The notes beneath the pieces were generated by a model. That model saw only the letters and a program-made list of their open reading frames with translations, ran no database searches and was not told the origin of the DNA. A DNA stretch of 64,000 bases from Sphagnum magellanicum (Eukaryota > Streptophyta > Sphagnopsida > Sphagnales > Sphagnaceae): contig CM038915.1 of NCBI GenBank assembly GCA_021904315.1, positions 3,162,001 through 3,226,000 on the forward strand. The letters run 5' to 3'. Positions 5,205-61,970 of this stretch are shown one piece after another. The translations under genes and the position numbers were made by a program. Within the stretch, counting starts at the first letter, position 1, and the number at the start of each line of letters is the position of its first letter.

Positions 5205-6084
5205 ACCAAACCGAAAATAGCAAAGGCAGGTTTATAAAGGCGGTATAAAAAAATAGCATAGGAAAGCCAATTTTGCGTTTCCCATATTGGCAAAGCGGAT
5301 TTCGATGATTGGGATACGTAAATTGGATTTGCCACATGTGATTTCAAAAAATGGGGTTTTCCAAAACTCGGATTCGACAAATAGAAGTTCCCAAAACTGA
5401 ATTTGGCAAACCTGGTTTGGTAACGGCAGATTAGAAAAACCCGATTTGGAAAAGGCGGATTAGGCAAAGCCGAATTTTGTAACGGCAGATTGGAAAAACC
5501 CGATTTGGAAAAGGCGGATTAGGCAAAGCCGGATTTCGTAAAGGTGGATACTACAAACCAAGTTTTGAAAAGCGGAATTGGGGACACTTGGTTTTAGCAA
5601 TGTCGGATTGAGAAAAGTGGATTTTGTAAGGCGAGATTTGGCAAACCCGGTTTTTCTTAAGGTGGATTTCGGAAGCGGGATTAAGAAAACCCAATTTTGA
5701 TGAAGGCGAATTTAACAAAGCGGGATTTTGTAAAGGTGGATTTTGCAAACCCGGTTTGAATAAGGCGGATTTTGTAAACTCGGTTTGAATAAGCCGGATT
5801 TGGCAAACCTGATTTATGCAACAACAAATCGCGATTTTTTGGCAATACACGGTTTCGCAAGGATGGATTTGGCAAATCGGGTTTTTGTAAAGATGGATTT
5901 TGCAAACCGGATTCGGAAAAACCAAAGTTTTGTGAATGCAGATTAAACAAACCGAGATTTTGTGAAGCGAGATTTCACAAACCCAGTTTCAAACAGCTAG
6001 ATTTGGCAAACCCGATGTTGGGAACAACGGATTCAGAATATGCGGTTTGGCAAAGAAGGATTTGACAAACCCAAATTTTGTAAA
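5205..6084. repeat. minisatellite of GCAAACCCGGATTTTG-like units
   Basis: About 880 bp made of degenerate units of roughly 20-33 bp, each with a GGCAAA or GTAAAGG start and a GGATTT core. Around 5413-5540 a longer higher-order unit of about 66 bp is present twice with few differences, so local duplication continued after the array formed. The minus-strand frames rich in asparagine, proline and leucine across it are products of the repeat. Confidence 0.85.
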
Positions 6085-6475
6085 GCGGGGAAGATAGGGG
6101 CGAAAGTCGGGGTTGAGGTTAAAGGGAAAAGGAAAAAGGAGGAGGATTTAAGTGCGGGCGAAAGCGAGAAAGGGCGAAGAAAGGGAGTGCGGGAGGTAAA
6201 GAAGGTGAAAGGGGTGGGCGCAGTGGAGCGGGGTAGAGAAGGGGCAAGGGAAGGGGGAGAGGGCAAGGGAGAGGGGGGCAAAAGGAGGAGGAGGTAAAGC
6301 AAAGTAGGGAAGCAAGATTGAAGGCGAAGCGAAGTAAAGAAGGGAAGAACAGAGGAGGAGGGGCAGGAGGGGTTGAAGGTTTAGGGGAAGAGGCATGAAA
6401 GGAAGGGAGAAGAGGGAAGCAATAAGAGGAGATGCAAGGCACGTAAGGAGGAGGAGGAGGAGGGGGTAAAAGGAG
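6085..6475. repeat. polypurine tract
   Basis: About 390 bp in which the plus strand is almost all G and A (blocks of GGGAAA, GGAGGAGG, GGGCGAA). The complementary strand is therefore polypyrimidine, which explains the long proline/leucine/serine-rich open frames on the minus strand. It joins two minisatellites of similar strand bias. Confidence 0.8.
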
Positions 6476-7080
6476 GTAAAGCGGGGTAAAGGGAGTTAAA
6501 GTGTGGGACAACGCAGTGAAGCGGGGTAAAGCGGAAATTAAAGCATGGTAAATCAAGGTGAAGCGAGGTAAAGCGAGGTAAAGTGGGAGTTAAAGTGGGA
6601 CCAAACGGAGTGACGCGGGGTAAAGCGGGGTGAAGCGGCAATTAAAGCGAGGTAAAGTGGGGTAAAGTGGGGTAAAACGCAGTGAGGCGAGGTAAAGCAA
6701 GGTGAAGCGGCAGTTAAAGCGGGGTAAAGTGGGGTAAAACGACAATTAAAGCAGGGTAAAAGAGGGTGAAAGAGGGTAAAGCAGGAGTTGAAGCGGGAGT
6801 TGAAACGGGGTAAAGTGCGGTGAAACGAGGCAAAGCGGAGTGAAGCGAGGTAAAACGGGAGTTCAAGTGGGGTAAAGCGACAATCAAAGGGGGGCGAAAA
6901 AGGGTGAAACAGGGTAAAGCAGGAGTCCAGGCAGGATAAAACGAAGGTGGAAGCAGGGTAAAGTGGCAATTAAATCGGGGTAAAGCGGTAATTAAAACGG
7001 GGTAAAGTGGGGTAAAGCGTGGTGAAGCGAGGTAAAGCGGGGTAAAACGGATTGAAATAGGGTAACGCGGGAATGGAAGA
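6476..7080. repeat. GCGGGGTAAA minisatellite
   Basis: About 600 bp of a degenerate decamer-like unit, GGGGTAAAGC with variants GAGGTGAAGC and CAATTAAAGC. The plus strand is purine-biased throughout. It ends directly at the telomeric tract at 7085. Confidence 0.85.
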
Positions 7081-7084
7081 GGGA

Positions 7085-7125
7085 GGGTTTAGGGTTTAGG
7101 GTTTTAGGGTTTAGGGTTTAGGGTT
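7085..7125 (+). repeat. interstitial plant telomeric repeat
   Basis: Six successive units of TTTAGGG type, one with an extra T, read on the plus strand. This is the Arabidopsis-type telomere repeat used by most land plants. It follows a G-rich minisatellite, an arrangement common in subtelomeres, but it is short and sits inside a contig, so it may equally be a repair insertion or an old fusion scar. Confidence 0.9.
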
Positions 7126-10296: not shown

Positions 10297-10582
10297 TGCA
10301 ACTGTGTTGTTGCAACATTGCATCCCCTATGCTCAACAATGCACATGCAATGCAAATACGATGTTGAAAAAATATGAGTACAACATGAATACAAAATATA
10401 GACAACATGAATACAATATAAAATCAATACAATAATAGAATTTGTAACCATATTGTAACAACATTGTATCATTTATAACTAAAAATGCATATCCAATACA
10501 ATCATAATACTAATGCAATATCATTACAATATGGACATAATGTGAATACAACATGGCAAACAACATAAATACAATGCAAATA

Positions 10583-10750
10583 TGATGCTACACCAATTAT
10601 CATTGAAACAAAACCAAAATTAAATCAATACAATCTAAATTATTTCAATGCCTATTTTACACGAACAAAACACTAAACCTTGGACATCTTGTAAAAGTAT
10701 TGTGAAAGCACTTAAATAACACTAATACAAAGGGGTCCCCACTTTGTGAT
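10583..10750 (-). repeat. dispersed repeat, inverted partner of 22270-22440
   Basis: This roughly 168-bp segment, starting TGCTACACCAATTATC and ending near GGGGTCCCCACTTTGTGATG, matches the reverse complement of 22270-22440 with only a handful of differences. The two copies are 11.5 kb apart and inverted. Both sit next to pieces of the T-rich dispersed repeat. Confidence 0.85.
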
Positions 10751-10759
10751 GTGTTCATC

Positions 10760-11230
10760 ACAAATTTCTTTTACTATTGAGGGGGAAGGGTTGCACCTTC
10801 ATTTTTTCATCAATTTTTTTTAGGGTTGAGGATGAGGGGGGTGGAGGTTAATGTTTTTTTTTTTCTTTTTGATTTGACTTATGGAAAGGGGGAAAAGGGG
10901 AGGTGGGGGGTGTAACGTTATGAAATTTTTTTTAATTTTTCGTTCAAGGTGGGTTTAAAGTTAGGTTGCAATTTTTATTTTTATTTTCCTTTCCCCATCC
11001 TCTTTCCTATATTTATTCATTATTCATGGGGAGGGGGTGCACCTTGATTTTTTTTTTAACTTATTTTACTTTGGAGGGGGAGGTGGGGTATAAGTGAATG
11101 TTTTTTTTTTCGTCCTCCATTTAACGTGTGGAAGGAGGAGGGGAAGGGGGTTAAGTTTTTCCTCAAATTTTTTTTTCATTGTTGAGTGGTTAAGGAGGGG
11201 GAGGGGGGGGGGTTTGTTTTCCTTTTTTTC
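10760..11230 (+). repeat. T-rich dispersed repeat, copy 3 (partial)
   Basis: Shares the GGGGAGGGGGTGCACCTTGATT and GTGTGGAAGGAGGAGGGGAA type phrases with the copies at 7388 and 25806 but lacks the CCTATACATATG start. Part of it seems duplicated (10765-10900 and 11015-11150). Just to the right the hydrolase gene is cut off. Confidence 0.7.
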
Positions 11231-11457: not shown

Positions 11458-13930
11458 AATTAATACGATTTCTGATGGTTGATTTCCTCTTCAATTTTAC
11501 AACCAAGCTCTTCGACACCAACCCTCCAAAACTATGGCCAATTAACATAGTAGGATGATGCCATTTATACCTGCACAAAACATATTCATTTGCTATACTG
11601 AATTTCGAGGAAATACCCTAATCGACTTCTACATTTCATATTAGTTAAGTCTATATTTATGTGTGACTGAAATATATCATCAAATGCACACCTCTGACAT
11701 TGCTCAAAAGAATTGTTGCACATTCCTGCACTTTAACTGTCCTCGTGGCATTTTCAGATTTTAGAAAGTCAAGGCCCTTTCCACTTTCAAAACCAAGCTT
11801 TTTAACACCAATCTCTAAAAACATAGCATATTTTAGCAATAAGGATGATTCCATTCACCCTGCACCATACATTATTGTGATATGTTCAGTTTCAGGAAGT
11901 GTTGAAACACCATCTATAGTTGGCCGATATACTATCATTGATAAGTGTACAAATTTTCTATACGATTGAGAGATGACCCAATGATTGAGCAACAAATCTT
12001 AAATCTGAAAATTTTAATTGCTTGATATATTTGTGAGTGAAACCACTATATTTGCCCAAACATGACATTGTGACAATCAAAGAAAGGTGACTTGTACCTA
12101 GGATTGATGAGAGTCTGGTATACATTATTCGCAACATGTGATACATGACCAAGAGGGGAGCTTTCTAGTACATGTGCATTGTATGAAACTAAGAAAATGC
12201 GCATAACTTCCCCCAAATCAATTGGTAGCCATTCTTCAGGCCAACATACATCATCATGACCTCGTTGTGTCCCTCCAGGCATGACCTTCCAGGCATCACC
12301 ATTGTCATTTGCAGTTACTTGGAGCCCACAAAACAAGACCACATCCATTTCAACACTTCGCTTGTCTTCACGAGGTGGCCACAGCTAATGTACCGGCCAA
12401 TGACTTTGCCATCAAAATTCCACATTCAAAATATTGCACAGTAACCAAAGTCTAAATCATAGCACCAGAAAGTATTAGAGACTTGCTAAGAGGAGATGCC
12501 ATCAATTGGTTTACGAATGTAATAGAATGGGCTATTTGAACCAAAACTCTTGGAAATAAATTAGTATCACAATGGTCCAGTCAGCAAGGTAAAAAGAACT
12601 CACAGAACTAGCAACCATGATCATCAAGATGGCTTCTTGTTGTTGTACATAAATCCATGATATGGTAACACTCAGCGATACCATGAGTCTTAGCAGTCTC
12701 ATCCATTGGCAAACTGCCATTTTGCTCTATTTTTAAGAGCTGAGAGGAATCCAAAAATCCTTGTTCCTTGAATAAATGGCTCTCATGACATACAAGAAGA
12801 GCGTTGTTGCTCTCAAGATCTAATAGCTTTGCACTCCTCTTCAAATATTGATAGGTGAAAAATAGCATGGTGGGAGCTGCCATACAAACGACAGTGTTGC
12901 TGTCACGCATGCATTTTCCGTTCATTCACACAAGGGGAGAAAATCCCTGACAAACTTGTGTAGTTATAAACATCATACATTGTTGCACATTGTTGAGCTC
13001 TTCTCTGAATTCCCAATCAAGCAATAGAGAGTCAATTTGTAGACTCTGTCACCTAGCCTTAGACACACATACAGTACCACCCTGGAAGTTAGATTCTACA
13101 CATTATTTGGGAAAAACACGAAGGGTGGTGAGAAAACAATACATAATATTCTGTTCATCTGGTTTTTGCCCATTAAGTGATTGGATCTGTTGATATGATT
13201 AGTACACATTAATCGACTCTTAAACAAAGAACTACTCTCATATGATCAAAATAACACAAATCTTTAGACCCTAAGCAAGACCCATGTTCAGACAATGGTA
13301 CATAGAAAGAAATGGACGCCAACATCCAAAATCTTGCATCGTCAAGAACAATACCTGAAATTCCTGAATCTGGAAGCACCATAAGAAAGAATAGCCAGCG
13401 ACAAATGATGTGCTGAAAAATTGCCATAGAAGTTCAACAACACCTTTATCTCTTCGACAAGAAAATCTTATGCTTCGTACCTCATAAATTGGACGCATAG
13501 AGTTTGAATCTAGTTGATGCAAAGGCAATCTGCAAAATACAAACCTTCAAACGGTTCAAGTCCTTGAGCAACATCAGGTAGGACTCCGTTTTGGAATGTG
13601 ATTTCAGGAACTTTCAAAACTAAAACTTCAAGTGATACTGGAAAGCAGTTTGCTGAACTGATCCAGCAGATTCCAATTGTTCAACAAATAATCAATGCAT
13701 AACCAACAAGAAAACATGAGGTTAGGAGTCCATGTAGCACAATACCACCAATTGTGGTTTTGTAGATGCCCTAGAAAATAAAGTTGCTTGCAAGCCAGTC
13801 GCATGCCAAGGAGATGGTTATCGGCTGCGAAAATGTAGACTCCACAGTAGTTAGAGTCGAAAATCAATAGGAAACCCTCAAACCGCCAGGAGTTGGGAGC
13901 CATCGATGCTGGAGCACAGCGTTCATTTCT
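11458..13930 (-). pseudogene. SERAC1-like alpha/beta-hydrolase gene relic (hydrolase-NLR type?)
   Basis: Two exons read clearly on the minus strand. Exon 12098-12348 has HGLQ-like CGLQVTANDNGDAW, then GHDDVCWPEEWLP and MRIFLVSYNAHV, and ends at a donor CTAG/GTACAAG. After a 527-bp gap an acceptor GTGCAG opens 11458-11570 with the nucleophile-elbow motif LIGHSFGGLV and KSLVVKLKR. Phase and residues join as expected in SERAC1-like hydrolases, where the elbow serine is catalytic. In mosses, liverworts and lycophytes such a domain also heads a class of NLR immune receptors, from which this may derive. Possible earlier exons lie at 13548-13650 (VLVLKVPEITFQNG, GLEPFEG), about 13300-13550 and 13770-13900 (MAPNSWRFEGF), but their joins are uncertain. 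The lid, the C-terminal half and any NB-ARC are missing: the reading ends in T-rich repeat. The expected catalytic Asp/His region is absent, so it is taken as a pseudogene. Confidence 0.65.
11695..11865 (-). pseudogene. decayed duplicate of the GHSFGGL exon
   Basis: Inside the gap between the two clear hydrolase exons lies a second, diverged copy of the elbow exon. After a GTGCAG-like acceptor it follows the same base pattern (…TGGNATCATCCTTA…, …GGTGTTAAAAAGCTTGG…) but has lost the GHSFGG codons. Unlike the other copy it runs on into TVKVQECATILLSNVRG, the segment that follows the elbow in the family. The pair is an exon-level tandem duplication in which each copy kept a different part. Confidence 0.55.
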
Positions 13931-14092
13931 CATGGGAAACGGGAAAACCGTCGAAATTAACAATATACCTACTGTGTGACTTTTCTGTGGATGTCCCCCA
14001 TTCCAAGAAACGATACAACACGAACAAAGACATGACTGATCTTCAATATTCTCCGCACCGCATTGGACACCATAGTTTGGTGAAGCTCCTTC

Positions 14093-14707
14093 ATGCTTGA
14101 CCACTTGTTTTATTATTACCCCAGGGGGGAACATTGGTCGAAAACAGCAAGACACACGGTCTTTAGATTTCAACAAAACCTGAACCTATACAAATTGTAC
14201 ATGGAGCTTTACAATATGCGACGGCAATCTTCACACCTCCGAAACAATCTTCACAATGTGTGTAAAGTAATGCATCGCGAAAGAGGAATTGACAGAGAGT
14301 GGATGGAGCAAAGAAAAATGTCAGCTCAGAAAACTAAATCCAAACAATCTACAACCTGTAGTAGACTTGGAAGTATACCCACCAAAGGGGTACTAGCGGA
14401 TGCAAGCCCTAGAACCAAAACTAGTAAGGAATGGGAGGAGCTGCTACGGAATACAGCAGAGCAGGAGATGAAAACGGAGCTAGGAAGGGGTAAAATACCA
14501 AGGAAACAAGCACAGTATAGCTTTGAGCGACACATACAAGTCTATGCGGAGGAGGATGAAGTCGATAGTGACCCTTATCGTAGTGCGACTTCATCAAGCT
14601 CTAGTGACTCTGATGCCAGCCTTTCTTGCACACCACCTTCCATTCGTTGTTGTTGCAACCCTAAAAAACTTGCAAGAAGATGTCAACCACAACGAAAGGA
14701 GGCATAA
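14093..14707 (+). CDS. 204-aa charged protein of unknown function
   Basis: An open frame of 204 codons begins with ATG and ends at TAA 14705-14707, 44 bp from the stop of the minus-strand helicase, so the two converge tail to tail. Residues about 60-160 are rich in Lys, Arg, Glu and Gln (DREWMEQRKMSAQKTKSK; EWEELLRNTAEQEMKTEL) and may form helices. An acidic stretch EEDEVDSD follows, then a Ser/Asp run and a short Cys-rich basic end (CCCNPKKLARRC). I know no family. Its first 60 codons overlap sequence possibly belonging to the minus-strand hydrolase relic, so the true start may be later or an upstream exon may exist. It is long for random sequence here and not repeat-derived, but its expression is unproven. 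Confidence 0.4.
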   Translation: MLDHLFYYYPRGEHWSKTARHTVFRFQQNLNLYKLYMELYNMRRQSSHLRNNLHNVCKVMHRERGIDREWMEQRKMSAQKTKSKQSTTCSRLGSIPTKGVLADASPRTKTSKEWEELLRNTAEQEMKTELGRGKIPRKQAQYSFERHIQVYAEEDEVDSDPYRSATSSSSSDSDASLSCTPPSIRCCCNPKKLARRCQPQRKEA

Positions 14708-14751: not shown

Positions 14752-16431
14752 CTAGAATTGTATTTTTCTGTGATTGTCTTGCTCCAACATTTGGATGCAC
14801 GCATCTACCAATTGTGTGAAGTTGGTGATAGATCGTCCCAAGGCCTTCAGTCCCATCCATCGAGCCAATTCTTCATCGCGAATGATGTCTTTCAATTCCG
14901 GCATGGCCTTGTGCATGTCCGACGGGTTGCGACGCCAAATGGCCCAAAGAAGAATGCGGTATCGTTGACCCAGGCAATCAACACCGTACCTTCCTTCGTG
15001 CAACTGGACATTGCCTAACGCTTGCTCGTTGTGCAAAAGGTGGCACTTGGGACAACTGTCAGGTGACCGGGGAATGGAATTGGGGCAATCCGACCTAGGA
15101 TGCGATCCCAAACATTTGAAGCATCGACAACCATCCAGCAACAACGGACAATTTTGACTGGGGTGACACAAGTTTCTAACATCGCCGTAAACACTGCACA
15201 TGAGACAATTGGGTTCATCAAGAGCAACAAATCGATGAAAATTCTTCAAGGATGTACAATCCTCGTTCATGAAGGAGGTGAGCACTGTCACTCGCACCCT
15301 AAGCATCGGCAATGGTGGGGGGGGTTCTAGTGACACCGCCCTCGATTGTCGTACACAATTGTCACACAGTTGTGCTGTTGGAATTAGGTTGCACCGTTGT
15401 GATTGACCATCCACAGCCAAATGAAAATTGTGTCGTCGATAATTCTCCGTGTCCGTGATCCAAGCGTTAGGTTGGACGAACGATGAATCGATGTGCAAAG
15501 CTTCAGCTTTAGATTTTGCACTAGAAATCACTCTGTTAATATTAGGTTTATCGTCGCGAGCAAGTCGGCCCGACTCTTGGTGCAGAGCAGTAAAATACCT
15601 AAAAGATCCATGGTGAATGACGAGCCTGACCGACGGGTAGTTGTACCCACACCCAATGACCCCGGTGGCCACCATAACCCGAGCTTCACCCGAGAGCCAT
15701 GATTGTAACTGTGCCTTCTTAGCGTCTTCATCCAGATGGGCATGAAGATGGGCGATCTTGACGCATGCCACGTTATTGGCGATCGATGCCACATGTTTGA
15801 CAAACTGTCGTGTCAAGTAATATACGATTGCCCAATCCGTCTCGGAAGACACATCGCAATCCCATTCGACAAGTTGTCGAATGATTTCATCGTCGACATC
15901 AACCACTTCATCGATGACATATCCAATCAACGGGCGCACCGTGGACATCCGGATGACAGTGAGTGACATGGACATCATGATCTTAAGGTCAGTCTCTTGA
16001 GAGGGGGACAAAGAGGTTGTCAATGCGACGAGTTGGCACCCCATGACCCACAACGGCAATAGGCGCTTCATGACCGGTCTGAAATCGGACAAAAGCAAAT
16101 GCGCTTCATCCACAATAACACAATGAAGCTTTTGCAAATGGTTTAATGTATGTGCGAGTTCCACAAACCTAGGAGTTGTTGCACGTTCCACTGATACGAA
16201 CAAGATGGACAAAGGATCATGAAACGTAATTATGTCTGTGCCATAGGTTGCGTATCGTAAGCCAGCTCGACTCGCATCAGCTTCGTGTCCATTGACAAGG
16301 ATGCTGAGAGGTACCACCACGATGATGGTGCGACCAGTGACCATGGGTGGAATCATGAACGCGGCTAATTTGCCATGTCCAGTGGGCATGACCACCAATA
16401 AATCAAGTCTATTTTCCAACACTAATGTCAC
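14752..16431 (-). CDS. RecQ-type DEAH-box helicase core with C-terminal zinc knuckles
   Basis: A 559-codon open frame, the longest in the window. Motif I is MPTGHGKLAAF (about residues 15-25): the GK is present but the usual Ser/Thr after Lys is Leu, so ATP binding may be impaired. Motif Ia is TIIVVVPLSIL (35-45), motif II VIVDEAHLLLS (105-115) and motif III LVALTTSLSP (134-143). Motif IV AIVYYL, motif V VMVATGVIGCGYNYPSVRLV and motif VI ALHQESGRLARDD follow. The C-terminus has CDNC, NCLMC, CRCFKCLGSHPRSDC and CPKCHLLH clusters, as in fungal relatives. The frame begins at a GTG codon without ATG, and the coding match extends upstream, so it is the 3' part of a larger gene. Expected role: 3'-5' DNA unwinding in the nucleus; here probably inactive. 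Confidence 0.9.
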   Translation of the reverse strand: MTLVLENRLDLLVVMPTGHGKLAAFMIPPMVTGRTIIVVVPLSILVNGHEADASRAGLRYATYGTDIITFHDPLSILFVSVERATTPRFVELAHTLNHLQKLHCVIVDEAHLLLSDFRPVMKRLLPLWVMGCQLVALTTSLSPSQETDLKIMMSMSLTVIRMSTVRPLIGYVIDEVVDVDDEIIRQLVEWDCDVSSETDWAIVYYLTRQFVKHVASIANNVACVKIAHLHAHLDEDAKKAQLQSWLSGEARVMVATGVIGCGYNYPSVRLVIHHGSFRYFTALHQESGRLARDDKPNINRVISSAKSKAEALHIDSSFVQPNAWITDTENYRRHNFHLAVDGQSQRCNLIPTAQLCDNCVRQSRAVSLEPPPPLPMLRVRVTVLTSFMNEDCTSLKNFHRFVALDEPNCLMCSVYGDVRNLCHPSQNCPLLLDGCRCFKCLGSHPRSDCPNSIPRSPDSCPKCHLLHNEQALGNVQLHEGRYGVDCLGQRYRILLWAIWRRNPSDMHKAMPELKDIIRDEELARWMGLKALGRSITNFTQLVDACIQMLEQDNHRKIQF

Positions 16432-16509
16432 AGCCAGGCCTTGTTCCTTGCATGTCCACTGTTCATGGCCAAATCAACAAAGAGCTCGTAAAGCACGCAC
16501 TTCGTGTGT

Positions 16510-17334
16510 TTAATTTCGAGGTGGAGGCAGGATGGCCGGTTGAGCGGGAGTCTGTGCGACCAAATACATGAACGATGCGAAGAGAGATGCGCAATCAGTT
16601 TGCAACGGACAATGGGTGTTGGGTCGGTCAATAATCGTCGGAATCTCAACGGTCGAAGTACCTGAGGGAGGTGGATCGAAGGGGCTCCCATCGAGTTGTA
16701 ACAAGCGATGCCATGCTTCGACGACCAATTTGTATGTGTACATTTGTTGGTTATCCATGAACCTGTGATCGTTCGAATAGTTGGCATAATGTCTTGCGAC
16801 CGTGGTGGAAGACTGCCCTAATGTCTCATCGATGGGAAATTTCGTGCAATAATATTGTTTAATGGTGCCGCCGAAGTAAGCGACGAGATGACGATAATTC
16901 GCAATCCCAAGATCAAGATTTGCATGCTCGAGGAACCCAGTGGCCACCAAATGCGAAACATGTCCGCCTTCCATGGCCACATCTCGTTGAATGGCCCAAA
17001 CGTTCATGTATTGTTGGGTAACGTCGATATTTCCACGCAAACCGGCGATGAACGACTACACCGGCCTCACAAGCAACATATATTCAGTGAACAACAAATT
17101 TAGTTTTGGAGGTAGGAAACGGGGTATCAATTTGATAGGTGGCCCTGCATTGGCGCCCTTGTGGTATTTCTGGAAAGTCATAATGGTGCCAAAGGACCAA
17201 TAAAATGTCCTATTAGAGTGTTTCATGTTGCGAATGAGATAACTTTTATATTCCTCCCCTCGAGGAGGACCGCTAGCAGTGAGATGCATGAGTAAAAATA
17301 ACAACGCATCATACGATCGACTGCTCGTGCTCAC
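16510..17334 (-). pseudogene. pre-helicase domain of the OrsD-RecQ gene
   Basis: Two open blocks (17056-17334 and 16510-17040) lie in the same frame with one stop codon between them. The first carries SGPPRGEEYKSYLIRN, NRTFYWSFG and YHKG, then IKLIPRFLPPKL, strongly resembling the GQPARGTE / RNiy / RYLP segment of fungal telomere-linked helicases. The second has LGIANYRHLVAYFGG, DETLGQSSTTVARHYA and EAWHRLLQL. In relatives the middle motif reads GHS..TA..YA, resembling the H-x-x-R…Y end of tyrosine recombinases; here the His is replaced by Ser. That resemblance is my inference and would matter if the family was once mobile. Confidence 0.7.
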
Positions 17335-17339
17335 ACTGC

Positions 17340-18630
17340 TAAGGCATTTTCATTCCATATGATGGATCAATCATTGTTTGTGCCTTTGATAAAAAATCTT
17401 CGAGTAAGCCGATCGGTAAAAAGGTGGATGGTCAGATCCTGTCCATGATGATGAAATTCATTACAGGCATCCGAGAAGAAAGAATATCCAACTTTGTCTT
17501 CATTCACCTTGTTGACGATGTTGCCTTCTGTTATCACTCAACCGATCCAGGTCGTCTAGAGTCCCAGTAGTAATTGGTTGCTCATGACTTTATTTGCCTC
17601 GTCGAACAGCTTGCCAACCATGTTCTATAATGTGTTGATTATCACAGTTTGACCATCGATCGTGCATGCCAAAGGACCGATTCGAATTAGTCTAGGGACG
17701 TCCAGGTCGTTGCCCAACACCGTGCAAGCAAGGCGCATGGTCTCCCGCAATTTGTTGAACGGTGTGTCCTTGGCATTATCATGAATGCAGGTGAGCCACT
17801 CATTAGCCTTGCACCAAGGGATGGTGGGGTGATCAGGTTGTCACATTGGACGCACAAGCTACATGAGGATCGTACATCTCCACCAATACTCAAGAATGGC
17901 TATGGGACCTGTCACATGTCGAACATGTTCGAAGGCAACGTTGGTTGATGAAGGGTTCGACTTTAAGCTGTTCACAATCAGGAACCTCATTATTGGACAA
18001 TCGATTTGTAGCCCATGCAGAACGACCGGACACATCGGTGGTCGACAAATGTGCAGCAACACCGTGTGGATGTGAATGAGATTTTCATTGTCCATGTCTG
18101 CATCTTACCGACCTCAGATATAAGAAATGAGACGGTTGAGCGCATCTGCGAGATCCGAATGTAATTGGCCAAGAACATTGTCGAATGGCTTATCATCTGT
18201 CAGACTGTTATCTCTGGATTGGACCATCGTAATGAGAAGCTTGGTCATTAGCATACAATATTTGCTCACTGTGGATGGCACCCAAAGCTAGTTGAGCCCC
18301 ACCGTGGCCACGGGGGAATCTTCGATAGAAACTACCAGCCGCCTGATATGCCAAATATGGTCGGACCATCGAGGGTAGGCAATCCAAATTGAATTCCCTA
18401 TTCATCGGGGTCGGGAGCACGCTTGCTTGCTTGATATGGTTCAATGGCGTACCCGCTGGAATGATGTGATTGACGGCTAGCTCGTGCCAACAAGACACCC
18501 TGAGCCATGGACTCAACTCACGAATGGATGGATTTGGTGCCACGTTCAATATCGAACATTCGTGGGCCTTTAACGAAGCACGCACTTGCTCCTTAAGTTG
18601 GAGTCCCATCGGGTCACCCACAAGCTCCAT
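17340..18630 (-). pseudogene. middle region of the OrsD-RecQ gene
   Basis: 18208-18630 is open and contains ELSPWLRVSCWHELA, the NPWL..tGW..hl-type motif of the family. From about 18215 to 17340 the match continues in a different frame: DDKPFDNVLGQL, CPIMRFLIVNSLKS, KDTPFNKLRETMRLA, then VGYSFFSDACNEF with FTDRLTRRFF, equal in order to the gYSFl.D.RN segment expected before the PARGTE motif. Several stop codons interrupt it. Collinearity over 1.3 kb shows a decayed but not rearranged gene. Confidence 0.6.
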
Positions 18631-18634
18631 ATTT

Positions 18635-19029
18635 TAGTGGTTGACACCAAAATAGGCGGTGTGCCCGACCTTTCTAAAAAGGCGCTACACTTGGCACGGT
18701 TAACAACTGGCATTCGCTAGTAAGAAAAAATGGTTGGCCAGGCGATGATTGGCAATGGTCCTCTTGGAAGCGGAATAGTACGCACATCCATCCGCCTTGC
18801 ATCGATATCCATTGATGACCGTGATACCTGGGACCATAGGTAAAAGCTCCTGCGGTGGAGATGTGGTATACCTTTCAAGGCAAGGGTCTTGCAATTGGGT
18901 GAATTCAATCTCATCAAACAACGGTGCAAAATCTGTGAAAGGTGGGATCGTAGTCACACAATGCTGGCCACCGTTGCGATGTCGTTTAAGAGTTCTGTGA
19001 TTGTCGTGCCCCAATAGGTGGTTATGCAC
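18635..19029 (-). pseudogene. OrsD-type C2H2 module
   Basis: Contains LPMVPGITVINGYRCKADGC followed by SASKRTIANHRLANH: a C-x4-C-x12-H-x4-H finger preceded by the 'lpgl.v.dGy.C' phrase typical of the second half of the OrsD domain (PF12013). Beyond an in-frame stop the same frame continues to RLFRKVGHTAYFGVNH, as in relatives where a VQtlF…yF segment follows. One of the stops (TAG) stands where relatives have Gln (CAG), consistent with a C-to-T change. Confidence 0.65.
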
Positions 19030-19139
19030 TTAGCAAGGCTTCGGCTCCAAATATACATCACAAACCTTGTACAATAGTAGACGAATGCCATCCACGGTGT
19101 TGAGAACAACAAGGCCAACATCACGGAGCAGCTCCGGTG

Positions 19140-19440
19140 TTTGTTTGACAGGTGGTTAAATTAACATGCCCATCGACATCGCCTTTTGCACATTGTCGTC
19201 ATGGAGCTCATTGAGGGTTGAATTGCTTTGCTCCACATGTTACACTTTGAAATGGCATTGGAGCTTATCGTTGCGTTCAAATGCCCTTGTGCAGCAATCA
19301 ACGGGGCAAGGAAATTTGCCTTCAATGGATCGGTGGACAGTAATTCAACTAGTGACAGTGCGAACCTTACAAGTGGATCGATGCACCAATCGGCAATGTC
19401 CATCACGTTGATGAGAAGCGAGAAAAAAAATGTTGCACTC
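19140..19440 (-). pseudogene. N-terminal C2H2-like fingers of the OrsD-RecQ gene
   Basis: Minus-strand frames give NFECPECNIFF followed by His-rich HQRDGHCRLVHR, and, in another frame 100 bp on, KFPCPVDCCTRAFERNDKL with QCHFKV. Both look like C2H2 fingers, one with the spacing Cys-x4-Cys-x12-Cys/His. A last in-frame piece is STLNELHDDNVQKAMSMG. The start of the gene was not found: to the right (above 19440) the sequence turns AT-rich and repetitive. Confidence 0.45.
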
Positions 19441-19540
19441 GGGGCATTCAAAGTTAGCCATGAATACCATATAACAATATGTAAGTGTTTGTGAACACAA
19501 CAGAGCTGCAACTGATAATAAAAGGTCAATATATCAATAA

Positions 19541-20247
19541 CTCGGGCTTTGTCGAACCGACCTTAACCCTGCAGACAAACGAAATTGAATTTTTGGTGTG
19601 AGTGATTTTCCCCAACATAACATCTACGCAAAATGACAATGTTCAAATTCATGCATACAACAAATATGTTCGGTAAATGCGATTACTTGGTCACATTGCT
19701 AAAATAGGTTTGCACATATATGGAGTTGAATCTGCGATGTGATCTAACCATTGTGCTCCTTCCGCCTCGTAGCCCTTGCGAAACATGGCAATGCTGGAGT
19801 TGAAAGATGAAAACAACACAAATTCCATCCATGCGACAAACTCCCAGTGCACACACTTCAAATGTTTGGAGTTATGTAAACCAATATATCATGAACTGAT
19901 GTTTGCACATTATGTTAATTTGGTATTGCGTAGACAAACATTCATTTCGCCAACACTAATAATGTTTTCGAACCATCAAAAAATACTGCAAAGATATCAG
20001 GGGCAGTCATACAAATTTTGTTGTGATCTCATAATTGTATCTATGAGAACAAGTTGAAATTTGCAACATGCTACATGATTCACAAAAGAATTTTCTATTC
20101 CTAATGATTTTTCACTACACTTCAAAGCCACGATGACAACGACAACAAATGAAATTTTGAAAGGGAAAGAAATGTAGATGCTGGTATAGGTTGAGGTTTT
20201 CATACCTGCACTCATTCATTGTGCTCAAACAAGCTGGCATGTGTGTG
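19541..20247. other. AT-rich left flank of the direct duplication
   Basis: No gene. Around 19690-19770 there is a faint copy of the word string GGAGTTGAA…GATGT…GTGCT that heads the duplicated units at 20248 and 22566, so the repeat array may have begun here. Confidence 0.4.
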
Positions 20248-21722
20248 GAGTTGAACTTAGGATGTTTGTGCTACAATGCCCCCTGCCAACATAACATACA
20301 CAAAAAATGACAATTCAAAACTTCACAATTTGAATGATAGGCCAACCTTGCGTAAGAGATTTCAAGATGCATCTCTGAATTTTACATGGAGCTATATGTT
20401 AGGTTGCTCACCTTAAGAACAAGAGTTTGGTGATGTACACCGCTATAGTGCACAAACACAATAGCTTTTGGTTTTCCAAATCACAAGATTTCGCAAGACA
20501 AATTCTTGTTGCACACACAAGAAAATTGGAAAAAATAAATCTCCAACCCCTTATGTTTATCTTGTGTCCTACTCCAATTTCACTATGTTTGAGGGAATTG
20601 ATAAATGACGTGGTGAAATGTACTTTGGCCTTCATGGCACATTGCGCAACCTTTTATTACCATCCATGCATATATGTTATTTATCTTGATAAATGGAATC
20701 CAATTTTGTAAAAAGGTAAATTACTTTATGTTGGATTTGATACGATTATGTATTCATTGCAATATGGGTGCCAACTTTTCGAATACAGGTGGGAAAATGT
20801 TGAACAATGTTTCAGGTATTTAATGCGGGTTGTACAAAAATCTTGCGTACCATATATGCAGCATATTTTATAATTTTTACATGTCGCATATATGACCCAT
20901 ATAACATTTCCCCATGGTGCTATCGCATGTCATTTTTCTACATCATGGCATATCACACATTATAATGAAAACGAGCTTATTTTTTATGGCAAGCAGTCTC
21001 CAAATTTCGGCTTGAATTCGGGTTTTCGTACCACTCCACTAAATTTTTCAAGAAATTTTGAAGGCGAGCTCATTGGGTGCCTTGTTAAGTGGCCCCCTTC
21101 TCCTTATTTTTCACTATAAATAGTTTAAATAATTATGTTGGCATTATATTTGGCTTTTGACTATCCGTCAAAATGTCACCATTGAAGCAACTTTGTAGAA
21201 TCTTTTTTTAAAAAAACCTTGAACTCAAGGGTTTATAAGGGCCACTGGGCAAGGTTGGAGAAGCAGATGGAAATTTAAGCAGGGGGGGATGTGACAGCCC
21301 CCTGAACATTATTTATAACGGTCCTGTAAATTGTTGTAATAAGAGGATCCATCAAATATGCAATCACATAACATTTACGGACATGTCTAATTCATGGCCA
21401 AATTATGTTTTGTACATTCGGTGGGAAATAGATCCAATTCTTGTTCTCATCATTCAATAAACATTAATTCATCCTTCGTCCCAACAAATCTTCATTACAA
21501 TTAATGTTTATGAATTAAAAGGATATGTGATATAGTAAATTTTGTGCAAGTGTGAAACACTGGCACAATTTACCAAAAATGTCCCAAGATTACAATTAAT
21601 AAGAATTCACCACGATAACACACTTCAAAGCATGCATGCCATACCCCATTGCCATAAGGTTCCTTTTAGCAAAATGAGGCTAGCTGCTATCTGGTCGGGA
21701 TAATAAATAATTTTTGATTAAC
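20248..21722 (+). repeat. 1.45-kb direct duplication, copy A
   Basis: Segment after segment recurs in order at 22566-23990: CCAACATAACATA near the start, ACACACAAGAAAATTGGAAAAAA in the middle, the phrase TTTGGCTTTTGACTA, and near the end AATTAAAAGGATATGTGATAT and AAAAATAATTTTTGATT. I judge identity at roughly 80%, so the event is not recent. Copy A has about 75 bp extra near 21290-21365. No conserved open frame spans both copies. Confidence 0.8.
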
Positions 21723-21939
21723 TTAAAATAAATTAAATTTCTTAAAACTAGTATAATTTTGAGAAATTTAACAAAATTTTGGGACACAAATAATATGCAC
21801 TGAATTTTTCCAACAACCAGAAGGCTTACTAACCAATGAAAAGTGGGGAAGTACCCCTATTTGGATTTCGAAAGTCAGAATAAGGTATTTTAATTTCAAA
21901 AGATTTCAATTACATGGGTTACATGTTGATAAAATTTGT

Positions 21940-22090
21940 TGAAAGTAACCATTTTCAAAATAAATGGCACTCATGGGCTTTAATCCATTAATGTGTTTTT
22001 TTTTTCTCGGATGTCATCACTACCATTTACCAAATAGATTAAGAAGCCCTCTTAGACGGACATTTTAAATAATGCTGGCTTAACCATATT
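21940..22090 (+). repeat. T-rich dispersed repeat, tail fragment
   Basis: Carries CATTTTCAAAATAAATGGCA, CTCATGGGC, CGGATGTCATCA and CTTAGACGGACATTTT, matching the last 150 bp of the long copy at 7388-8165. Confidence 0.7.
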
Positions 22091-22269
22091 TTTTGACCAA
22101 ATCCATTTGGAGTTAGATTTTGTGTATGAAACATTGAGGTGCTTGAGTATTGGAGGCCAATGAACCAACATGAAGAAAGGACGAACCCCAAGTTTGTTTT
22201 GGGGGGGGAGGGGCTCCTAGACTTTGTTTTTTTAATAAACAAGAATGTCAATTGTGAAAAAACCAGGAA

Positions 22270-22440
22270 GGGTACATCACAAAGTGGGGACCCTTTTGTA
22301 TTAGTGCTATTTAAGTGCTTTCACAATACTTTTACAAGATGTCCAAGGTTTAATGTTTTGTTCGTGTAAAATACGCATTGAAACAATTTAGATTGTATTG
22401 ATTTAATTTTGGTATTGTTTCAATGATAATTGATGTAGCA
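22270..22440 (+). repeat. inverted partner of 10583-10750
   Basis: Reverse complement of the segment at 10583-10750 over about 168 bp with few differences. It ends TGATGTAGCA exactly where the following sequence turns into a partial copy of the duplicated unit, so 22440/22441 is a junction. Confidence 0.85.
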
Positions 22441-22565
22441 CATAACATTTGCGGACCTGTTTAATTCATGGCCAATTTATCTTTTGTATATTTGGTGGGA
22501 AATAGATGATATTTTTATTCCCATCGTTCAATAAACATTAATTCATCCTCCATCCCAACAAATCT
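22441..22565 (+). repeat. third, partial copy of the duplicated unit
   Basis: Matches 21368-21487 in copy A and 23630-23755 in copy B (CATAACATTTGCGGAC, TTCATGGCCAATTTAT, AATAAACATTAATTCATCC). It then switches directly to the start of copy B, implying at least three units once existed in tandem. Confidence 0.75.
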
Positions 22566-23990
22566 TGCGCGTAGAGTTTAACATGCAATGTTTGTGATGC
22601 CATGCCCCCTCCCAACATAACATATGCAAAAAATGATAATTCAAACATTCACAGTTCGGATGTTGGGCAAACCATGTGTAAAAGATTCCAAAATGGATCA
22701 GTGAATTTTACATGGAGATATATGTTGTGTTGCTCACCCAAGGAACAAGAGCTTGGTGCTATACACCGCTATACTACACATACAAAATAGCTTCTGGTTT
22801 TCCAAATCATGGGATTTTACATGACATATTCCTCTTGCACACACAAGAAAATTGGAAAAAAATGAATATTTACCCCCCCCCCCCCTTTGTTTGTCACGTG
22901 TCGTACCTTTTTATTGCCGTCCATGGATATATATGTTATTTATTTGGATAAATGGAATTTAATTTTGAAAAAAAGTAGATTATTTTGTGTTAGATTTGAT
23001 ACGATTATGTATTCATTGCAATATGGGTGCCACCTCTTTGAATACACTTGGGAAAATGTTGAACATAATTTTAAGTATTTAATGTGGCCTGTACAAAAAT
23101 CCCATGCACCATATATGAAACATATTTAATAATTTTTACATGTTAAATAGACTGACATGTATAACGTTTTCCCCATGGTGTTATCACACGTCATTTTTCT
23201 GTACATGTCATATCACACATTATAATTTTTAAAAATTATTATTTTTTATGGTAGAAAGTCATGAATTTTTTAGTCTAATTTGGGTCTTCCTACCACTCCA
23301 CTAAATTTGTAAAGAAACTTTCAATGCAAGCTCACTCGGTGGCTCGTTAATCGGCTTCCTTTTTCCTTTTTTTTTCGGTGTACTCAATTATAGTATAACT
23401 TCTCCTAGCATGGTTCGAATCATTTTACGTTTTTGTGTGTAGTTTAAATAGTTTCGTTGGCATTATATTTGGCTTTTGACTACCCATCAAAAAGTCACCA
23501 TTGACACAAATTTTATAAAAAATAAACCGCGAACTCAAAGGCTTACCAGGGCCATTGGGAGAGGTTGGAAAAACATATGGAAATTTGGGGGGGGGGGGGG
23601 GGGGGGGTTTCAAACTCGGGGGCCATCACATAACACTTACGAACATGTATGATTCATGGCCAATTTATCTTTTGTATTTTTGGAGGGAAATAAATCTGGT
23701 TCTTGTTCTCATTATTCAATAAACATTTAATTCATCTTCCATCCCAACAAAACTTTATTACAATTAATGCTCATAAATTAAAAGGATATGTGATATATTA
23801 AACTTTGTGCAAGTGTGAAACTTTAGTATAATTTGCCAAAAATGTCGCAAGATATTTACTAATTAAAATTAACCATGACTCGACACGATGACATACTTTA
23901 GATATGCCATACGCCATTGCCATAATGATCCTTTAGGCAAAACAACCCTAGCTACTAGTAGGTCGCCGTAAAAAATAATTTTTGATTTAT
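22566..23990 (+). repeat. 1.45-kb direct duplication, copy B
   Basis: Second full copy of the unit described at 20248-21722. It contains a 13-base C run near 22873 and a 21-base G run at 23587-23607 that copy A has only in shorter form. Confidence 0.8.
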
Positions 23991-25805: not shown

Positions 25806-26450
25806 CCTATACATATGATCCGAGCATTATGCTCGTGATGCTTGAGGCTTGAGGCTCTTTGACCACCAAAAATACACAGTGGTGCTGAGGCTTTTTAGTG
25901 TAATGCTGAGGTTTTTTTTGTTGATTTTTTTCACTTTTTGTTACTTTTTGTTACTTTTTTTACTACTTGTAACTTTTTCAAATTACTTTTTATTGTTGAA
26001 GGTTCAATGTTTGTTACTTTTTGTTACTTTTTTTACTGCTTGTAACTTTCATAAATTATTTTTTTTACTATTGAGAATGGCCAGGGAAATCATTTAGTTA
26101 TATTTTTTCATTGTTTAAGGGGAGGGGGTGCGCCTTGATTTTTTTATTTATTTATTTTACTATTGAGGGGGAGGGGGTGTAGGTTGGTTTTTTCCTTTCA
26201 TTTGAAATGTGGAAGGAGGAGGGGAAAGGGGTTTTTTTTTTTTTTTCAATTTTTTTTTCATTGTGGAATAGTTGAGGAAGGGAAAGGTTTTTTTTTCTTT
26301 TACAAATTCATTATGGGGGGAGGGGTTGGTTGAAAATGGCTATTTCCAAAATACTAGGCACTCATGGGTTTGAATTCATTAGTGTTTAGGGAATTTATTC
26401 TTTTCGGATGTCATTAGCACCATCTACTTAATAAGCTATTAAACTTTAAA
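25806..26450 (+). repeat. T-rich dispersed repeat, copy 4
   Basis: Begins CCTATACATATGATCCG and has the same order of words as the copies at 4411 and 7388, including GTTACTTTTTGTTACTTTTT, GGGGAGGGGGTGCGCCTTGA and the tail CACTCATGGGTTTGAATTC with CGGATGTCATTAGC. An additional fragment of the GGGGAGGGGGTG part lies at about 26500-26660. Confidence 0.8.
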
Positions 26451-26660
26451 TTTTTCTTTATTTTTTACTATTCAAGGGCTTGGTGAGTTGTTTTAGTTTT
26501 TTTTTGAATTGTTCAAGGGGAGGGGGTGAGCCTTTATTTATTTATTTTGATTTTTTTTATTGTTGAAGAAGAGGGGGCGGAGGTTAAGGTTTTTTTTTCC
26601 TCCTTCATTGGACATGTGCAAAGAGGAGGGGAAGGGGGTTTAGTTTTTAACCCTAAAAAC

Positions 26661-29360: not shown

Positions 29361-29940
29361 TAATGTGAGGGCATTGAGGCTGGAAAGGGTCAGTTGAACG
29401 TGTTTTCTTTCTAGTTTTTTTTTCTATGAATTTTCGCTCCTAGCCAAAAGTGACAATCAATAATAGGAAGATGTAGAGAGTGGCGATCATCCCTAAGAAG
29501 ATTTAGCCAAATATGGTTAGGAACCAGAGAGAAAGTAAAGATCTATAATATTTCTATATTTCTGGTTACAATGAAAATAAAAACCTAGTATACAAATATG
29601 CCGATTTTTTCCTCTGTTTTGGCGACTGAAAACCTCGAAAACCACTTCTTTTTCAAAATTTTAATTTTCAGTTTCGCTTTTTGGCGAAATTTCGCCAGTA
29701 AAAATAAAGGCTGGAGCTTCCTTCCGGATGTGCATGAGCAGACGCGCCGATCGCCGCGCGTTTCCCCGCACGCACCATGTTCTCAAAAACCTCAGTAACA
29801 AAAAGATTGCAGAAGCAGTCACGTAGACGCACCGCCAAATCTACCGCGAATTAGTTTTGGTGGCGGCAGCGTTGGTGCGTTGTTACATTCCAAATTTTCC
29901 CGTTGTTGTTCCATTTGTGGGTGCATCGATTGTCGTCTAG
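29361..29940 (+). promoter_or_regulatory. 5' flank and leader of WAPL
   Basis: To about 29700 this is dispersed-repeat sequence with the phrase AAGAAGATTTAGCCAAATATGG shared with 48120, 49900 and 54745. From about 29720 composition turns GC-richer (CGCGCCGATCGCCGCGCG), as expected for the promoter or 5' UTR of the gene starting at 29941. No TATA box could be assigned. Confidence 0.4.
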
Positions 29941-32900
29941 ATGATCGTGAGGACATATCAACGGCGGAATCGGATCGTGCGCAGGCTTTCCGATGGAGGT
30001 GGAGGAGATGGGACTTCGACGTCACAACAGGAGGATTCTTCTTCGCCCTGGAGCAGCAGCTATCAGGATGCTTTTCCATCGTCGTCATTCCCGTCGTCGT
30101 CGCAGGTGCTGTAGTTTTTAAAAAACAAATCTCGTACCCTAATGCCTCATGCTTGCTGTCCAAGTTATTTATTTATTTATTCTTTCAGAGATTCAAGGGA
30201 AACCAAACAAACCCCTGTAAGGATCTCGATAAGATACATTAGGGTTTCTTTTCCTGAATGGGGTCTCATCATGTCTGAATGTGAGTCTGCATGGGGGGTC
30301 TCATCATGTCTGCAGGAATCTGGCTGGTGGCAATCTGATCATGGAAACAGAGCACTGTTGTCCTCTGGCTCAGCAGGTGCACAGGAAGGTGTTGGGGCCA
30401 ATTTGGTTAGGCCGAGATCCCTCACATGGACTTACCAAAAAAAAACCCATGAAGATTTGATGGAGAATTCTATCATGGACACCCACTCCATGATAGATGC
30501 AGAAGGCAGGTTCAGTCATGAGATAGAAGGTGGTGCAGCCAGGATGGAGAGTCTAATGCTGAATGGTGATTTCACAAGTTCCAAAAGCTTAAAACATAGG
30601 TGTAATTGGTCCCAGACGGTTATGTCAACAGGGATTTCAGGGGGAGCAACAACTCCTGCCATTTCAACTCTACTAGAAGCACAGGAATCAGGAGAGATGA
30701 TGGAGCACATGGATGAAGCTAACTTTGCATTGGATGGCTTGAGGCCTGAACAGCCCCTGCAGATACAACGTGCAAGTCTCCAGTCCCTTCTCTCCCTCTG
30801 TGGGTCAATCCAGTGTCGACGTATCTTAAGGACTCACAGGTACATGTTCAGATCTCTTTATCTACATTGGATTGTTGGCTCATGCAGGCAGTCCCCTTGT
30901 GAAGTAGCTCAGGGTTTTTTCAAGTTTGTGGTGTCCTCATATTGTGGTGTCAAAATGGCAGTCTGGTGAAACCGTTGCTGGATGCAGTTGTGGCTCTTCC
31001 AACTGATGATTCACCATTGGCTTTGGCTGCAGCTGCTGTGCTGTATTTTCTTGCGCTGGATGTAAGTCAGCAGTGTCATCACTGTCGTGTATTGAGTGCA
31101 CAGGATTACACATCTAGGAGTGTTTCTGTTGGATAGCTCACATATGTGTATGTTATGCTGTAAGGATGTCCAACCTACCTTTGACAGTCTCTGGGTGGGC
31201 TATGTGAACTTTAGATGTCCTTCAGTGGATCAGTGCCCTAACGGTTTGTGATTGCTGGCAGGGACAAAATGAGGAACTCTTTGACTCTACAGGCTGTGTG
31301 CAGTTCCTAATGAGACTGTTAGGTTCCTCTCTTCCACAGCCACCCAAGAAGAGTCTTTTCAGTATTGGCAACAAGCTGGCAGGGCTGGGAGCTAGGATGA
31401 AGACTGGTAATGCAGGCATGGCAGCACTTGATCAGGGAGGTGCAGCAGTGGTTGCTGAAGTGCACAAACTGTTTGCAAGAGAGGAGAAAATTGATAACAG
31501 TCAGGATGAGGGGTGTGGATATCTGCTTGGACAGGAGTTGACTGCCAAGTGGCTGGCTTTACTGACTCTTGAGAAAGCATGTCTATCCACTGTTGTTCTT
31601 GAAGGTGCATGTCTACACCCACTATCTTGAGCTGATGACGTCAGTGGGAAGTAATTGCTGCTATTACTGCTATGTATGATGAAGGTGATGGTCTGATACT
31701 TTGTCACACTCAGAAGCTATGACTGTGCTCAGTTCTTATCATACTTTTGTTGGTGTGACCAAAAGTGCAAAATATTTGTTTGGTGGCATGATGTGCTTTT
31801 GTGGGGTTTATCTCTGCAATAAAACCAACAATATCCCCTTTGAATCTTATCAGGCTCTTGAGTCTGCTCATTAATCATTGCTTGTATAATCCGTAGCCCT
31901 CAAAATCTGTGTGTTTGTGTAGAGATCTCAATATTTCATTCTTTGTGTCCTCTCACATGGATAAGGTAGGTCTCTCTTCGATTGTGAATCTTCCTCCTGT
32001 TATTGAGTCACTTCCTTCAATCCTCAGTAGATTTTGGTCTCCTCTGTAGTAGCTTGGAAGTGTGTGAAATCTTTGGGTCAACATTTATTCAATTTATGGA
32101 GATATCGAAAAGGTCTTGTGCCTCTTGGAAGTCCAAAACATTTTGAGTTGTGATTAAGCTCATTCTAAGTTCCTAGTTTTATTAATCCTCACTTCGCTCA
32201 TGTAATTTCAGCTGACCTAACATTCTTTCAAGGCTGAATTTTATTGACCTTTTTTCAGATTTGAGAGGTAGAATGTTATCATCTGATCATTTCAGTTTTT
32301 TTGTTAGTTCAGAGGTCAGCTTTGACTTTGGGTATGTTTGGTTGAAGAATAAGGATGAGCTAATAAGCTCATTGCAGCTTGAATGAGGATACTATTGGTC
32401 TTTTTTATTAGAGATGTTTCTTGAGTGCTAGTCAATTTCATGACTGAGTCTTCCTCTTGCTTCCAGAAATGCAACAGAAACTCAGGATGCACATTTTGAT
32501 CTATTGCTCACCAAATTTTTTGGCTGACTATTATATACTAATCTACACCCACTGTAGAGAAAAATAGTTATTCTTCAGAGTTGAAAAAAATTGTAAGAGG
32601 TAGGCCTAACCAAGAATGACTTCTGTTTGGTTTGCCTGCCTTTGTAATCTTTGAAATGTCTATTTCAAAGAGTTCTTAATGGAAAGTGGGAGCTTTTCTA
32701 AGCCCACTTTGAGGTTTCCTTTTCCTTTTCTCTTTCTTTTTGTGTTACTCTTTCTTCTTGGGTTCTTCTGTCTTCTTGTCTTTTAGGTTTTGTTGAGCTA
32801 GCCAAGCTTCATGCCTGAGTTTTCATGTTACTGCAGGTCTTGTGACATAAATTCAGTATGTTTGCTTGATAGTTGACACTAATTGCCATGCATTGTCAAG

Positions 32901-41240: not shown

Positions 41241-41640
41241 CCCTTCTCTCCGTTTCTTACATACCCTAGGTTATCTTCCCCTCCCCACCCCCCACAGCAA
41301 CACTCACTCACTCACTCCCTCACCCACTCTCTCTACGACTTCCAACTTTATTTCCTTCCTTCTCCCCTCCTCTTTTTCCTCCTCTTCTTTCTTCCCCACC
41401 CCACGAACGCCACAAACCAATGCTTGCGCGAGCGAGCGAGAGAGAGAGAGAGAGAGAAAAAGAGAGTTCACAAAGCGAATGGCGATGGCAAATCCCTAAC
41501 TCTTCAAAACCCAACGTTCTCGTCCCTCTCGTACTTTACACAAAGCTATTTCCCCAACACGCTAACGTAAAGTCATTTCATTTCAGTGATAAGCGCCAAA
41601 TGTTGCACTAATGTCGGCCTCCTTCTCCATTAGGCTAACC
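41241..41640 (-). promoter_or_regulatory. 5' leader and core promoter region of BPM
   Basis: In the sense of the gene this region is rich in C/T and G/A blocks, including a (CT)9 tract at 41439-41457, common in plant 5' UTRs. Plus-strand open frames across it are serine/proline-rich by-products of this composition. No TATA box was assigned. Confidence 0.5.
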
Positions 41641-61110: not shown

Positions 61111-61529
61111 CACTCTGAGTGCAATTGAACAAATTTATCATGGTGAAAATGGCCAACCCTTTAATAAATAAGGAGTAGTTGTTATGGATAGGTGAATTCA
61201 CCAATAGGTAGTCAAATTCACTAATAGTTAAATCATTAATAATAAATTCACAAATAATTAAATCATCGATAATAAATTCATTAATAGTTAATTACAAACC
61301 TAGATTAAACATTTAAAAAACTTCATTAGGTTATTTAGTTTAAGCTAGGAACCTAGCCCACTTAAACATTTAGCCCACCAACCTAGGGTGCAAGTGTGAA
61401 GGTTTGAACCTTGCACCTTCTCTCACCTTCATTTTTAATGAACAACTTTTTAACCATTGAACCATCATTTAAATAAATGATATTTTCTTGTCATGACATA
61501 TTATTATGCACATTCTTTTTGCCTTAAGC
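61111..61529. other. gene-free; short AATTCAC(C/T)AATA repeats
   Basis: 61190-61290 has a run of degenerate units of the AATTCACTAATAGTTAAATC type. No gene was seen. Confidence 0.5.
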
Positions 61530-61970
61530 AATTCTTGGTTATTCTACCATAGGCTATTATAGGCTATTCTATCATAGCCTATTGTTGTATATTTTAGGTT
61601 AATTTACCATAATGTTATTCTTGGTTATTTTATTTTAAGCTATTGTTGGTTATTTTAGGCTATTTTACCATAGGCTATTTATTGGTTATTCTATTGTACG
61701 CCATTGTTGGTTATTTTAGGCTATTTTACCATAGGCTATTTATTGGCTATTTTATTATAGGCTATTGTTGGTTTTTTTAGACTATTTTACCATAAACTAC
61801 CATAGACTATTTTATCATAGGCTATTATAGGTTATTGAATTGGTTATTTTAGGTTATTTTACCATAGGTTATTATTGGTTATTCTATCAAAGGATATTGT
61901 TCATTATTTTAGGTCATTTACCATAGGTTATTTTATCCTAAGTTATTTTTGCTTATTTTATTGTAAACTT
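61530..61970. repeat. TAGGCTATT minisatellite, first block
   Basis: Degenerate units of about 20-30 bp made of TTACCATAGGCTATT and GTTGGTTATTTTATTATAGG. The array resumes at 62375 in the same orientation. Confidence 0.85.

Follow-up and report, generated by a model that had tools for sequence, protein, structure and literature searches.

A probable decayed relic of an OrsD-RecQ gene of the telomere-linked helicase type in plant-type DNA near WAPL

The 64,000-nucleotide stretch of DNA analyzed here (the window) quite probably contains a pseudogene, the decayed remnant of an OrsD-RecQ gene of the "telomere-linked helicase" (TLH) type, fixed in a plant nuclear chromosome approximately 10 kb from WAPL. 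The relic reads as a single colinear protein on the minus strand, with the frame switched twice (at ~18.21 and ~17.36 kb). The coordinates of its parts and of the flanking repeats are collected in Table 1. An order of C2H2 fingers, OrsD, NPWL-, PARGTE-, YRH- and WHRLL-like blocks, a RecQ core, and Cys knuckles had originally been predicted, and this order was borne out by Pfam searches and translation. The OrsD domain (PF12013) was detected in the Pfam search at 34 bits (E value, 4.6e-8), over the curated cut-off of 26.6, and the helicase core scored 51 bits for PF00270 and 45 bits for PF00271. The top PDB matches of the helicase core were RecQ proteins (E value, 8.5e-19), and the TIGR00614 recQ_fam model gave 106 bits, under that model's 220-bit cut-off. 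The N-terminal fingers had no Pfam match and were called from their C-x2/4-C-x12-H-x4-H spacing. Within the intervening region, the NPWL-like block contains SPWLRVSCW and the PARGTE-like block contains PPRGEE.

Table 1. Features of the OrsD-RecQ relic and flanking repeats (positions within the window)
Feature	Position	Strand	Basis or remark
Whole OrsD-RecQ relic	14755-19461	minus	Runs from the Met of MANFECPEC to the codon preceding TAG 14754
C2H2-like finger 1, C-x2-C-x12-H-x4-H	19381-19446	minus	Translation; no Pfam match
C2H2-like finger 2, C-x4-C-x12-H-x4-H	19237-19308	minus	Translation; no Pfam match; internal stop
OrsD domain (PF12013)	18730-19032 (strongest part, 18730-18909)	minus	Pfam
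NPWL-like block ELSPWLRVSCWHEL	18478-18519	minus	Translation; compare L017 LEPNAWLARLGAPAHLA and L062 DYQSAWIKTLGCGKHLAG
Frameshift 1 zone, frame 2 to frame 0	18211-18218	minus	Translation
Frameshift 2 zone, frame 0 to frame 2	17350-17369	minus	Translation
PARGTE-like block ASGPPRGEE, candidate Arg I of tyrosine recombinase	17251-17277	minus	Translation, alignment
YHKG block, candidate catalytic Lys	17155-17166	minus	Translation
TAG nonsense codon	17056-17058	minus	Aligned block; Trp in the homologue L017
LGIANYRH block, candidate Arg II	16888-16911	minus	Translation, alignment
QSSTTVARHY, H/Q-then-9-then-Tyr, candidate catalytic His (Gln here) and Tyr	16786-16815	minus	
WHRLL block	16699-16713	minus	Translation
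TGA immediately upstream of helicase frame	16474-16476	minus	Translation
RecQ-type helicase core, DEAD and Helicase_C	15556-16443	minus	Pfam, PDB matches, TIGR00614
Walker A, degraded, PTGHGKL (L017, PTGSGKS)	16366-16386	minus	
Helicase motif VI QESGRLARD	15553-15579	minus	
Cys knuckles, C-terminal	15043-15366	minus	Translation
Dispersed host repeat, left of relic	10581-10752	plus	95% identical to right copy
Dispersed host repeat, right of relic	22274-22444	minus	95% identical to left copy
Second host repeat family, left copy	11008-11200	plus	
Second host repeat family, right copies, WAPL side	26061-26648 (26099-26282, 26508-26648)	plus	

Two independently found contigs, L017 and L062, share this architecture and, together with the Pfam matches, uphold the predicted family assignment. 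L017 was found with a degenerate DNA pattern for RGTE...YHKG, which was run across genome contigs and hit 18 loci, 17 of them without a significant match and one, L017, a real relative. In a small three-contig search, it matched the relic by tblastn in three segments (E values, 5e-8 to 8e-7), covering the middle domain and two helicase parts. Its blocks run in the order LEPNAWLARLG, GGQASRGTEL, TGYHKG, and SQWRH, followed by AGHSGRMSRNVY, AWHHFLGF, PTGSGKS, and QESGR. In L062, OrsD scores 50 bits and precedes the same middle domain that L017 has. Since the same blocks recur in the same order in both contigs, the family assignment has independent footing, and the Pfam significance combined with these independent relatives argues that the architecture of the relic is more than chance.

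Both contigs are part of a GTDB metagenome-assembled genome (MAG) labelled Mucilaginibacter sp. RYN_329. They are contaminants there, as their GC content of 0.60 to 0.62 is foreign to the MAG (0.39 to 0.43) and a search of 399 genomes of that bacterial family detected OrsD in this contaminated MAG alone, not in the remaining 398. We take their source to be eukaryotic; PF00504, PF00172, and PF00069 searches of the MAG gave no clue to it. Long runs of Gly, Thr, and Gln occur in both contigs, whose source may be a green alga instead of a fungus. No relatives turned up in viral contigs, whether the query was the helicase half, the middle domain, the family alignment, or any of several degenerate DNA patterns, and some weak matches there were rejected as antisense chance matches. 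In plasmids, tblastn returned ordinary bacterial RecQ only, and phages searched with the middle domain contained no relatives.

The core of the relic is roughly 25 to 30% identical to bacterial and human RecQ, as it would be if the locus were an ordinary plant RECQ gene. This reading is hardly credible, however, because an OrsD finger and the middle domain lie upstream of the core, and because the motifs VVVPL, SPSQE/PPSKE, and QESGR are common to the relic and L017 but absent from the aligned bacterial RecQs.

The original prediction of a helicase gene did not hold. Between positions 19533 and 16474, 17 in-frame stops were found, of which 7 fall in the OrsD part, another 7 in the middle, and 3 in the YRH part; these stops and at least two frameshifts lie upstream of the helicase part. 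In addition, Walker A reads GHGKL in place of GSGKS, with the loss of its Ser/Thr. As judged from its translation, the relic is a pseudogene, not a working gene, and can no longer make its protein.

A functional, intron-bearing gene would offer another account of these stops: the stop clusters would be short introns, and the helicase half would still be translated. The stops are indeed partly clustered (18702-18636, 18116-18107, 17861-17843, 17627-17540, and 16512-16476), and the last 573 codons, 14755-16473, are open. Nevertheless, we consider this account improbable. No in-frame Met occurs from the TGA at 16476 to the first helicase motifs, and the stop at 17058 falls within an aligned block where L017 has Trp. 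The missing Ser/Thr of Walker A likewise speaks against a functional gene. Moreover, the distance from the NPWL-like to the PARGTE-like block is ~419 codons in the relic versus ~442 in L062; as this spacing is no longer than that of the relative, introns are not needed and have little room.

The stop-free helicase frame, set against 17 upstream stops, indicates that the decay of the relic is uneven. At the upstream rate (17 in 1,015 codons), ~9 to 10 stops would be expected in the helicase frame, and none is present (Poisson P, ~7e-5). Codons that are a single step away from a stop are similarly dense, at 0.39 per codon in the helicase frame versus 0.29 to 0.39. Either the helicase half was retained longer, or the upstream stop rate is inflated by noncoding stretches.

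The surroundings of the relic fit a plant nuclear chromosome, as judged from neighbouring genes and repeats rather than from a database match; Rfam and tRNA scans returned nothing that would identify the host. WAPL, which had been predicted nearby, was confirmed on the plus strand at 30115-36980, and the placement of the relic in plant-type DNA is further supported by a MATH-BTB-BACK gene of the BPM/SPOP type (exon at 40449-41270), TTTAGGG-type repeats, and repeat families on both sides. The window also contains a sub-threshold match to DUF4216, a plant transposon-associated family. The TTTAGGG-type repeats form an interstitial array of 42 bp at 7084-7125, ~7.6 kb from the relic; no TTAGGG array was found beside the relic, which does not adjoin telomere repeats.

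Further open frames and tandem repeats were observed in the window. A 207-codon open frame without a Pfam match (14084-14704) directly adjoins the relic at its 3' end and runs on the plus strand, opposite to it. Another, at 12049-12384 on the minus strand, contains WKVMPGG...WPEEWLP.DLG...VSYNAH, likewise has no Pfam match, and presumably resembles an alpha/beta-hydrolase of the SERAC1 type. A strongly G-skewed minisatellite of the GGGGTAAAGC type (6455-7071, ~0.6 kb) adjoins the TTTAGGG-type array, and a second tandem array, of the TTTGGTAAAGGCGGATT type with units of ~29/59 nt, occupies 5387-6104. A diverged tandem duplication with a period of ~2.3 kb and 72 to 88% identity extends over 20245-23987, between the relic and WAPL, and an AT-rich array with ~60-nt units (TACCATAGGCTATT) is found at 61520-62588. 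The WAPL locus (29799-38053) has an observed/expected (o/e) CpG ratio of 0.19 (0.14 in its exons), against 0.94 in the MATH-BTB exon a few kilobases away, so that the two have markedly different CpG histories.

Composition was predicted to set the relic apart, and its GC content of 0.47 does exceed that of the flanks (0.34 to 0.41). The argument for transfer built on this difference fails, however: exons of neighbouring host genes reach the same values (0.44 to 0.51), so the enrichment is no evidence of transfer. CpG o/e is 0.89 in the relic versus 0.33 to 0.47 in the flanks, an argument for foreign origin that is weakened by the value of 0.94 in the host MATH-BTB exon. In their use of synonymous codons, the two relic halves agree best with each other (r = 0.57); the relic correlates with host exons at 0.11 to 0.23 and host exons correlate mutually at 0.41, with bootstrap intervals that overlap. 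As sequence statistics, CpG and codon usage thus hint at a foreign source without settling it.

The same departures of GC, CpG, and codon usage from flanks or host exons would also be seen if a fungal fragment had been joined into a plant contig by contamination or chimeric assembly. We regard such a join as very improbable, since each of the two repeat families has copies to the left and to the right of the relic. CpG and GC furthermore shift gradually over 1 to 2 kb at the relic borders, with no step, which together with the shared flanking repeats argues against a chimeric join, and the relic shows no RIP-like CpA depletion (CpA o/e, 1.37). A reading of the inverted pair at 10581 and 22444 as the termini of an element was discarded, because the pair belongs to a 167-nt dispersed repeat and has no target duplication.

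A horizontal origin of the relic is plausible; horizontal transfer, or carriage within a mobile element, probably brought it to its present place. A serious rival to horizontal origin is an overlooked green lineage, in which OrsD-RecQ would be an old Viridiplantae family and the relic a local dead copy that involved no fungal transfer. The GC content of the relic, inside the host exon range, is in line with vertical descent, as is the possibility that L017 and L062, with their Gly, Thr, and Gln runs and GC of 60 to 62%, are green-algal rather than fungal. We nonetheless judge vertical descent somewhat unlikely, given that the known relatives were reported from fungi in the literature searched and that the codon usage of the relic is unlike that of neighbouring genes.

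In the relic, L017, and L062, the middle blocks match, with substitutions, the order and spacing of the catalytic residues of tyrosine recombinases (YRs). The candidate series consists of R..E, K ~30 to 35 residues on, R-H, which we liken to the LRH of the HxLRH motif, and then H, with Tyr exactly nine residues later. His is replaced by Gln in the relic, Arg II is replaced by Gln in L062, and the box-II His is missing from all three. A relaxed catalytic pattern occurred in 0.3 to 0.5% of shuffles, a post hoc estimate in which some matches lay off the claimed sites. The PF00589 profile did not match L017 or L062, and hmmsearch of the middle domain gave scores within those of decoys. Alignment to 39 YRs with hhalign covered the H-Tyr segment only (E value, 0.066; score, 19.1), and 2 of 60 column shuffles scored higher. 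An AlphaFold2 model of the middle domain, made from two sequences, was of low confidence (mean pLDDT, 32; pTM, 0.20), and the order of helices and strands in this low-confidence model (pLDDT, 32) fits a YR. No link between TLH genes and tyrosine recombinases was found in the literature searched. Going by residue order and spacing, the middle domain could be a tyrosine recombinase, an identification that we hold tentatively, at slightly below an even chance.

The ancestral protein would have bound DNA through its zinc fingers and OrsD finger and opened or moved it with a 3'-5' RecQ motor, and its middle domain may have served for strand exchange in the manner of a tyrosine recombinase. The gene could thereby have spread as a selfish element, of a chromosome-end or a transposon-like kind. 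No such function is left in the present copy; as it is dead, its value is that of a fossil and a pointer to intact relatives. A non-telomeric copy in a plant chromosome would, if true, mean that genes of this type can pass from one kingdom to another, behaviour more in keeping with a mobile element than with a gene for telomere maintenance. We think it unlikely that OrsD-RecQ TLHs are mobile tyrosine-recombinase-plus-RecQ elements able to cross between land plants and fungi (or algae), with the relic as a fossil insertion near WAPL. Should the middle domain prove to be a tyrosine recombinase, the spread of TLH genes would gain a direct, testable mechanism.

Among mobile elements, those of the Crypton type may be comparable in the middle domain, where the candidate catalytic residues of the relic follow the order and spacing of theirs; the profile and fold comparisons above lent this likeness no support. 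We know of no Crypton that carries OrsD or RecQ. Neither terminal inverted repeats nor target site duplications were found at the relic borders, nor are the borders linked by any repeat, direct or inverted, of more than 11 nt; YR elements likewise lack terminal inverted repeats and target site duplications (PMC3627910). The contigs L017 and L062 share with the relic the NPWL-like, PARGTE-like, YRH/YQH, H-9-Y, and WH-F-L blocks, with OrsD in L062 and the RecQ core in L017, at ~27 to 32% identity where aligned. L017 is itself broken by stops, and the L062 contig ends without a helicase.

The closest named kind is that of the fungal telomere-linked helicases, namely, UTASa/UTASb of Ustilago maydis, tlh of Fusarium oxysporum, tlh1 of S. 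pombe, and TLH of Magnaporthe. Genes of this type crowd chromosome ends in many fungi and, to our knowledge, have no agreed function. Fungal TLH genes and the relic alike encode a RecQ-like helicase, and the UTASb elements of Ustilago are reported to contain an OrsD domain (PMC10532341). The relic spans ~4.7 kb, compared with ~3.5 kb for the Fusarium tlh open reading frames (PMC12857005). Unlike the fungal genes, it lies in plant-type DNA with no adjoining telomere and carries stops and frameshifts. Of the family features, it retains OrsD, a downstream RecQ-type core on the same strand, and conserved middle blocks that align to L017 and L062, and it lacks an intact frame with catalytic helicase motifs and a position beside telomere repeats. 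As the intact frame and the telomeric position are missing, we class the relic by its architecture as a decayed rather than a working TLH, a member of a family that is known but in a host where it was not expected.
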